From assembly GCA_016930365.1 (NCBI GenBank), contig JAFGGY010000063.1, positions 1-51,576 on the forward strand: DNA of 51,576 nt. The letters run 5' to 3'. The stretch is from Prolixibacteraceae bacterium (GTDB lineage Bacteria > Bacteroidota > Bacteroidia > Bacteroidales > Prolixibacteraceae). How positions within the stretch are numbered: the stretch's first letter is position 1; the number at the start of each line of letters is the position of its first letter. The translations under genes were made by a program, and so were the position numbers. The notes beneath the pieces are model-generated. The model was not told where the DNA came from, did not search any database, and saw nothing but the letters and a program-made list of their open reading frames with translations. Positions 32,404-34,498 of the stretch are shown here, in pieces.

Positions 32404-32560
32404 ATCAAGTACTATCTGAATTATCCAAATTACATTCAATATTACAGTTTTAGTGTTTTCCAAAACCATTTGCAAAATAATAATTGCAAGTGAATAGTGG
32501 CATTATTTTGATTTCGAATCATTGTTTTCCGAGCAACAATGATTTCGGACTATTGCAAAC

Positions 32561-32590
32561 AAAAAGCAGGTAAGATATACCTGCTTTTTT
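32561..32590. terminator. Rho-independent terminator
   Basis: AAAAAGCAGGTAAGATATACCTGCTTTTTT stem-loop downstream of the DUF2807 gene. Confidence 0.8.
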
Positions 32591-32630
32591 AATAAAGTTA
32601 TTGACGATAATATCTTCAACTTATTATTGA

Positions 32631-32797: not shown

Positions 32798-34018
32798 TTA
32801 TAAAAGCAACAACTCCTCCGATTGATAAATCATTGTTTTTAACTCAGAGGCCATTATACGAATTCCTTCCTCCATCTTATCGTCCGAGGCGTTGCTGAAA
32901 TTCATGCGTATGTTTGATTGTCCGTTTGCCGAAACAAAAAACGAACTTCCGGGGACGAAAACCACATTTTGTTTCATGGTACGCTCAACCAGCTCATAAG
33001 CATCAATTTTGTAAGGTAATTTTAACCATAAAAACATACCGCCACGTGGTTTTGTATAGTGCACATTGTGTGGCATATATCTTTCAATTAATTGTTGCAT
33101 TAATGCACATTGTCGGGCATAAGCATTACGAATCGTCTTCAGATGCTGGTCGATGTCGTTGTTCACAAGAAAATGATATATAATGTGTTGCGATAAATTA
33201 TTTGAATGTAAATCGACCGATTGTTTGGCTCGTTCGAAGTAAGCACTCAACCCATCGGGAATTACGACCCAACCCATGCGTAAACCCGGAGCCACCATTT
33301 TCGAAAACGAACCAGTCCAGAATACTTGTTCGGGTGCATAGGCATAAACCGGTTTTGCGCATTTTTGGTCAAAACAAATCTCGTTGTACGGGTCATCTTC
33401 AAGCATCAATACTTTATGATCGTTGAGTAAGGAAGCTAGTTTTATGCGCTTTTCTTCTGAATACGTTATGCCCGACGGATTCTGAAAATTTGGAATTGCG
33501 TACATCAGTTTTACATCGTTTTCTTCGAAAATACGTCCGGTTTCTACTATATTGGGACCATCGCTATTCAGGCTGGTTTCTAAAAACCGGGGGCTGTAAG
33601 CCGACAAGGCCTGTATGCCACCGAGGTAGGTGGGTTTTTCGACCAAAACATCATCGCCACGATTGACAAACATCTTTCCGATCACATCAATTGCTTGTTG
33701 CGAACCGTTGGTTATGATAATATTTTCTGCCTGTATCGATAGCTGGTACTTTTTGTTGTAACGATTTGCAATCCATTGTCGCAAAGGTAAATAACCTCTC
33801 GACCCGGCATATTGCAACATTTCAACTCCATTATTCTGAAACACTACTCCGGCTGAATGTTTAAGTGCTTCAATCGGGAAATAATCGGGGTTAGGTAAGC
33901 CACCGGCAAAGGATATCATTTTATCACTACCGGCAACGTTTAAAATTTCGCGGATAAACGACTTCGGAATTTGTTTAAAGTTTTCTGAAAACTTTTCATG
34001 GTTGTTTGCTTGTTTCAT
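32798..34018 (-). CDS. PLP-dependent class I/II aminotransferase (ARO8/LysN-like, no HTH)
   Basis: SFAGGLPNPDYFP, LQYAGSRGYLPLR, WTGSFSKMVAPGLRMGWV. Confidence 0.9.
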   Translation of the reverse strand: MKQANNHEKFSENFKQIPKSFIREILNVAGSDKMISFAGGLPNPDYFPIEALKHSAGVVFQNNGVEMLQYAGSRGYLPLRQWIANRYNKKYQLSIQAENIIITNGSQQAIDVIGKMFVNRGDDVLVEKPTYLGGIQALSAYSPRFLETSLNSDGPNIVETGRIFEENDVKLMYAIPNFQNPSGITYSEEKRIKLASLLNDHKVLMLEDDPYNEICFDQKCAKPVYAYAPEQVFWTGSFSKMVAPGLRMGWVVIPDGLSAYFERAKQSVDLHSNNLSQHIIYHFLVNNDIDQHLKTIRNAYARQCALMQQLIERYMPHNVHYTKPRGGMFLWLKLPYKIDAYELVERTMKQNVVFVPGSSFFVSANGQSNIRMNFSNASDDKMEEGIRIMASELKTMIYQSEELLLL

Positions 34019-34054
34019 ATTTGTTTTGATTTAAAAATTAAAAATCGTGGTCAT

Positions 34055-34096
34055 AAAAAAAGCCCTTCCCGATGGTCACATCGAAAAGGGCTTTTC
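34055..34096 (-). terminator. Attenuator terminator 2
   Basis: mRNA AGCCCTTTTCGATG-TGAC-CATCGGGAAGGGCT (14-bp stem with two G-U pairs), then U7. Confidence 0.85.
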
Positions 34097-34115
34097 TGGC
34101 AATACGAACCCCGTT

Positions 34116-34190
34116 CTATGTGACTTCCACACAGAAAATAATGGCTGCGACTGCTGCTATGATGTATAAATTCACGGTTTGCATATTCAT
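34116..34190 (-). CDS. Putative leader peptide 2: MNMQTVNLYIIAAVAAIIFCVEVT
   Basis: Small ORF before terminator 2; codon run IIAAVAAII. Confidence 0.65.
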   Translation of the reverse strand: MNMQTVNLYIIAAVAAIIFCVEVT

Positions 34191-34203
34191 CTGATTATAT
34201 CAA

Positions 34204-34236
34204 TAAAAAAAGCCATTCCCCGAAAGAGAATGGCTT
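34204..34236 (-). terminator. Attenuator terminator 1
   Basis: mRNA AAGCCATTC-TCTTTCGGG-GAATGGCTT followed by U-tract. Confidence 0.8.
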
Positions 34237-34276
34237 GATTTTTTATATTTTTTTGATTTATTCCATATCTCTCTGG

Positions 34277-34339
34277 TCAACAACAAGGCAAAGTCGCCGC
34301 TGCTACTGCAATAATTATATGGATATAATTGACTTTCAT
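34277..34339 (-). CDS. Putative leader peptide 1: MKVNYIHIIIAVAAATLPCC
   Basis: Small ORF before terminator 1; codon run IHIIIAVAAA. Confidence 0.65.
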   Translation of the reverse strand: MKVNYIHIIIAVAAATLPCC

Positions 34340-34498
34340 AATTTTTCGCTATGGTAAATCGATTGATTTTTACCGGTTCTTTTTTGCAAAGCAACAAAAT
34401 ATTTTTTAAACGAAAACATTTTTAAGTAAAAAAGTGCATTCCTTAAATGTTTGTATATTTGCTTTCGCATTGAAACGGCCAAAAGGTATTGAAACAAA

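Follow-up and report, generated by a model that had tools for sequence, protein, structure and literature searches.

Tandem trp/ilv-type leader-peptide attenuators predicted upstream of an aminotransferase gene in Prolixibacteraceae

Organization of the aminotransferase locus

The window, meaning the whole stretch of DNA that was analysed (51,576 nucleotides, from a Prolixibacteraceae bacterium), carries on its minus strand a gene for a PLP-dependent aminotransferase (AT). Two short reading frames lie upstream of this gene, each followed by an intrinsic terminator, and the two leader-terminator pairs are referred to as units 1 and 2 (Table 1). An earlier note on this DNA had placed both leaders, both terminators and the AT start, and all of these coordinates were found to be correct, with terminator 2 falling within 34097-34055. 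The distance from the end of terminator 2 to the AT start codon (34018) is 36 nt in the window sequence. The exact reverse complementarity that had been reported between GTCACAT at the end of leader 2 (34124-34118) and ATGTGAC in terminator 2 (34081-34075) was also confirmed. A hairpin located 3' of the AT gene suggests that the AT transcript comprises a single gene.

Table 1. Features of the AT locus, in the direction of transcription
Feature	Position	Strand	Basis
Candidate Bacteroidota -7 promoter element, TTGCTTTG	34387..34394	(-)	placed by inspection only
Leader peptide 1, MKVNYIHIIIAVAAATLPCC*	34339-34277	(-)	open in frame in 21 orthologues; Ile/Val/Ala-rich
Unit 1 strand 1, AUCCAUAU, Ile-His-Ile codons; partner, strand 2	34317..34324	(-)	alignment pairing count
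Unit 1 strand 2, GAGAGAUAUGGAA; partner, strand 1 or strand 3	34261..34273	(-)	alignment pairing count; own-versus-swapped pairing
Unit 1 strands 3:4, intrinsic terminator and U tract	34204..34236	(-)	terminator scan; alignment counts
Leader peptide 2, MNMQTVNLYIIAAVAAIIFCVEVT*	34190-34116	(-)	open in frame in 23 orthologues
Unit 2 strand 1, control codons GCAGUCGCAGCC (34154-34143) and UCUGUGUGG (34136-34128); partner, 34124-34099 (anti-antiterminator hairpin)	34128..34154	(-)	pairing count; MFE fold
Unit 2 strand 2, GUCACAUAGAACGGGGUUCGUAUUGC, beginning at the final codons and stop of leader 2	34099..34124	(-)	pairing counts; masked folds
Unit 2 strand 3, GCCCUUUUCGAUGUGACC, 5' arm of the terminator; partner, strand 2 or 4	34074..34091	(-)	pairing counts; masked folds
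Unit 2 strands 3:4, intrinsic terminator and U tract	34055..34097	(-)	alignment counts
Regulated gene, PLP-dependent aminotransferase (AT), 406 aa, LysN / multiple-substrate aminotransferase group	32798..34018	(-)	protein comparison
Terminator-like hairpin, GCAGGTA..TACCTGC-TTTTTG, 3' of the AT gene	32560..32592	(-)	inspection; absent from the consensus terminator-scan list

A TTTG box resembling the -7 element precedes the ATG of leader 1 by 5-9 nt in 15 of 21 relatives (L003-L047), which implies a very short 5' UTR in those relatives; the spacing in the window is 47 nt. The TTTG spacing suggests that the leader-peptide mRNA of these 15 relatives is nearly leaderless.

Conservation of the two units in the family

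Of the 140 genomes of the window's family, Prolixibacteraceae, 23 contain an orthologue of AT (47-100% identity). The named near-relatives that carry AT are Mangrovibacterium, placed in Prolixibacteraceae, Marinilabiliales, and Sunxiuqinia. With covariance models, both units were detected upstream of AT in all 23 AT-carrying genomes, a count that takes in two genomes recovered by the models (one with a split contig and one with a displaced gene start). Strong matches were confined to the same 23 genomes, with E<=7e-13 for the unit 2 model (R1) and E<=2e-13 for the unit 1 model (R2).

The leader frame of the AT leaders encodes 59% I/L/V/A and never contains an internal stop, whereas the corresponding values for the other two frames are 24% and 8%, and these frames are interrupted by stops in 38/44 and 13/44 of the sequences. 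The leaders show many nonsynonymous changes, which by inspection mostly stay inside the I/V/A/L class. The codon-position bias of the leaders is only mild and was left out of the evidence. As the earlier note had proposed to check, the leaders are kept in frame alongside the terminators and antiterminators in the relatives examined. Compensatory changes give strong support to unit 2, and unit 1 has fewer of them. At two loci (L036 and L004), leader 2 contains in its 5' part a GC-rich, repeat-like insert that leaves the frame open. The AT gene of one genus relative (G005:C156; L006, L011) seems to be broken, as it matches in two different frames and carries one TAG; a strong match to the unit 1 or unit 2 model was sought in the G005 genome and none was found.

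Each unit can form mutually exclusive helices

Pairing was counted in alignments of 23 sequences for unit 2 and 21 sequences for unit 1. In the 1:2 hairpin of unit 2, the control codons, together with the leader's end, pair with the stop region and a conserved GUAUUGC; its inner helix was 69.6% paired, with compensatory changes at 5 of 8 pairs. The antiterminator 2:3, which joins the stop region of leader 2 to the 5' arm of the terminator, was 81.7% paired, compared with at most 52% when the strands were slid, and showed compensatory changes at 6 of 10 pairs (26 cells; 0/500 shuffles). The terminator 3:4 was 98.7% paired, with compensatory changes at 7 of 13 pairs (27 cells). Inspection of one relative, L003, revealed a single change that tracks through three strands, from the Val codon GUA to GUUACAU in strand 2 and AUGUAAC in strand 3. 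The unit 2 antiterminator, earlier offered as a possibility, is supported by pairing and by compensatory changes beyond what chance would give.

In unit 1, the 1:2 hairpin is formed by the Ile-His-Ile codons (AUCCAUA) and UAUGGAU. For this hairpin, 93.5% of the cells were paired; sliding the strands brought the figure down to 54% or less, and one pair had changed on both sides. The antiterminator 2:3 is a helix of 9-11 bp between AGAGA[U]AUGG and CCAUUCUCU; it was 82% paired, a conservative count since the helix has two registers with a bulged U, and the slid controls were far lower. The terminator 3:4 was 96.8% paired, with compensatory changes at 3 pairs and slid controls again far lower. 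Changes on both sides were fewer than in unit 2, and covariation is modest. The GAGAGA/UCUCUU pairing that had been noted for this unit does exist, but its description as a weaker option did not hold, given the 9-11 bp helix and the additional 1:2 hairpin.

In both units, duplexes of strand 2 with strand 3 from the same sequence were more stable than those with the strand 3 of relatives: -15.9 versus -13.6 kcal/mol in unit 1 and -19.4 versus -14.0 kcal/mol in unit 2 (assignment permutation, 0/10000). Alignments, folds and duplex energies thus give each unit a 2:3 antiterminator and a 1:2 hairpin that exclude one another. By its sequence, unit 1 is a full four-strand attenuator, and judged by the codons of the predicted ORF, the intrinsic terminator before the gene and the exclusive 2:3 and 1:2 helices, each of the two units is very probably a leader-peptide attenuator.

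Predicted switching of the tandem attenuators

The nascent RNA of the window was folded with a ribosome masked as a 30-nt footprint, an approach that yields equilibrium folds and not kinetics. In these folds, the antiterminator of either unit formed at each ribosome position tried between codons 8 and 18 and was absent with the ribosome at the leader stop. When no ribosome was present, unit 2 formed 1:2; unit 1 gave 2:3 in a shortened RNA and 1:2 together with 3:4 in the complete RNA. Since the shortened RNA of unit 1 already gives the antiterminator, default termination at this unit would hinge on 1:2 forming first.

We propose the following model. A ribosome running fast to the leader stop would cover strand 2, leaving strand 3 free to pair with strand 4 and end transcription. 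If charged Val, Ala or Ile tRNA is short, the ribosome would stall on the control codons and block 1:2; strand 2 would then pair with strand 3, and transcription would pass. If the leader is not translated, 1:2 would form and termination would be the default, a prediction seen clearly for unit 2 of the window. RNA polymerase would have to clear both units; as these bear the same codon classes, the gates should multiply, keeping basal expression low and making the response steep. Ribosome stalling, read-through and the signal are the parts of this model that we infer from the sequence.

Codon content of the AT, ilvD and leuA leaders

The models of the AT units cross-matched leaders before ilvD and before leuA, including those of the window's own genome (ilvD: G000:C39:7526-7656, L150, MTQNNNISIINLLVVEVISLK; leuA: G000:C77:16370-16505, L170, MMNSIIISLISLLGILILGKLN); the two gene names were assigned by reading the protein sequences. 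These cross-matches support a common scaffold for the AT, ilvD and leuA leaders. The AT leaders (n=43) contain 17.7% Ile, 17.1% Ala, 14.4% Val and 8.6% Leu, compared with 18.6% Ile, 18.1% Val, 17.8% Leu and 3.1% Ala in the ilvD leaders (n=61) and 27.9% Leu, 23.5% Ile, 0.6% Val and 0.3% Ala in the leuA leaders (n=16). The excess of Ala in the AT leaders over the ilvD leaders is significant at p about 1e-17 (relatedness ignored), with the total ILVA content equal. That the shared scaffold bears codons fitting each gene is the best evidence that the codons, and not the peptides, matter, and this contrast on homologous scaffolds supports the suggestion, made at first from codon bias, that the AT leaders sense Ile/Val/Ala.

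The two AT leaders are nearly equal in composition, with A at 18.5 versus 15.5%, I at 18.7 versus 17.1%, V at 13.0 versus 15.1% and L at 8.2 versus 9.2% in units 1 and 2, respectively, so a single signal is preferred. Different signals for units 1 and 2 were considered and are disfavoured by this almost identical codon composition. The codon classes of the two units are the same, which predicts a common signal in the cell.

The ilvD leaders (loci L084, L091 and L120-L169) are rich in Ile/Leu/Val and, across the family, are tandem in 12 of 51 cases; the tandem leaders of L091 read MRNLNNIILSIIIILVVVIP and then MNTTLIIIVVVIILILIRT. In the loci examined (L170, L171-L187), one Leu/Ile-rich leader lies before leuA. 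The leuA leaders of several genomes contain a repeated GGTATTCT motif.

AT leaders beyond the family

Among the AT orthologues at the level of the order, two units with other peptides were present in L048, L052 and L058, one unit in L054/L056 and none in several. A class-wide protein search returned no further AT orthologues outside the order at its threshold. In a search of named genomes, a leader and a terminator were found at all 10 Bacteroidota AT loci, whereas none of 70 non-Bacteroidota AT homologues passed the same leader and terminator scan. Outside the family, 4 of 6 Bacteroidota orthologues (L192, L193, L194 and L204) have tandem units. Cultured species with the tandem include Mangrovibacterium marinum (L190) and M. 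lignilyticum (L188) within the family and Desertivirga xinjiangensis (L194) beyond it. Leaders from outside the family include FVVVAVAIAVAVAVV in Desertivirga (Sphingobacteriales), AVAVAVVV in Chitinophagaceae and VVAVVVTVVVL in Cytophagales. Val and Ala form the recurrent core of the leaders outside the family; the L058 leader has Leu/Ala.

Taken more widely, the odds are slightly in favour of a family of attenuators, shared by Bacteroidota, that partitions branched-chain and alanine metabolism, with codons re-specified for each gene, doubled units acting as a multiplicative gate and codons that predict substrates. Within this proposal, the multiplicative gate and the alanine/valine transamination substrates are predictions.

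Alternative explanations for the tandem leaders

We considered whether only one unit is a working attenuator and the other a decaying duplicate. Compensatory changes are indeed fewer in unit 1 than in unit 2, the unit 2 model weakly matches unit 1 of the window (E 5.7e-5), as expected after a duplication, and some distant orthologues have a single unit. However, unit 1 retains its terminator and alternative helices in 23 of 23 genomes, and the tandem persists both in the four orthologues outside the family and in L048, L052 and L058, which makes a decaying duplicate unlikely. The two short frames could also encode functional hydrophobic small proteins, such as a membrane peptide or toxin, with the terminators ending their own transcripts. 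This would fit peptides that are hydrophobic, about 20 aa long and conserved in position, but the residues drift inside I/V/A/L while the nucleotide pairing stays, the residue class tracks the downstream gene (AT, ilvD or leuA), and the region of the stop codon belongs to a conserved alternative helix; we regard this explanation as very improbable. Least probable of all is a riboswitch or protein-binding leader with incidental reading frames. Conserved RNA structure and terminators before a biosynthetic gene would agree with it, yet no Rfam family matched at the gathering score, the weak matches were at chance level, and the conserved frame and codon content would be left without explanation.

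The reading that we prefer, with a probability of about 0.86, is that two ribosome-mediated transcription attenuators responding to the same signal act in series to control AT and sense charged tRNA for Val/Ala/Ile. The conservation of leaders, terminators and antiterminators together in relatives supports the trp/ilv attenuation logic invoked earlier, and the pair is real and conserved, and very probably works.

Relation to known attenuators

In E. coli, the leaders of ilvGMEDA / ilvBN and trp act by ribosome-mediated transcription attenuation. The AT leader resembles them in its short leaders rich in residues of the pathway, its 1:2, 2:3 and 3:4 helices and a terminator before the first gene, and shares with ilv the multivalent branched-chain codons. 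It differs in having two full units in series, in its added alanine codons, in a strand 2 of unit 2 that starts within the last leader codons, and in belonging to another phylum. The window had no match at the gathering score to the Rfam amino-acid leader families (Thr, Leu, His, trp and others). A Bacteroid-trp RNA has been described as a candidate attenuator.

The mgtCBR leader of Salmonella likewise has two short ORFs, each tied to its own attenuator; its tandem attenuators respond to two signals, ATP and proline, and act additively, and two attenuators in one leader were called unusual (PMC3641672). Unlike those of mgtCBR, the AT units have their codon classes in common and an intrinsic terminator apiece. 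Leader-peptide attenuation has long been described chiefly from Proteobacteria and Actinobacteria (2010 survey, PMC2965389), and leader-like sORFs, unvalidated, are mentioned in a transcriptome of B. thetaiotaomicron (PMC7366714). In the openly accessible sources searched, we found no published description of the AT tandem element, nor any of a branched-chain leader in Bacteroidota. What is new here is the combination of two units in series with the same predicted signal, a Bacteroidota host and alanine among the control codons. The tandem AT leader thus appears to be a new and strong case of trp/ilv-type attenuation from Bacteroidota and not a new principle. A conserved pair with one predicted signal opens the question of what the second gate buys, a lower leak or a steeper response, and the natural codon swaps among the leuA, ilvD and AT leaders make the sensing rules directly testable.

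Predicted role of the aminotransferase

The control codons also supply a substrate prediction for this uncharacterised aminotransferase. The closest solved structures are multiple-substrate and alpha-aminoadipate (LysN) aminotransferases, and in sequence AT lies near these LysN-type enzymes. None of the NCBIfam equivalog cut-offs was reached; for valine--pyruvate transaminase (AvtA, transaminase C), AT scored 119 versus 402 bits. The Val/Ala codons of the AT leaders nevertheless fit the AvtA reaction, and it is from this codon content that we infer an AvtA-like activity. A role of AT as a substitute for IlvE was rejected, since IlvE is encoded in the window's genome and in 55 others of 60; with IlvE also present, genetics does not dictate the role of AT. 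The enzyme probably acts as an alanine/branched-chain transaminase of the valine-pyruvate type, in addition to IlvE.
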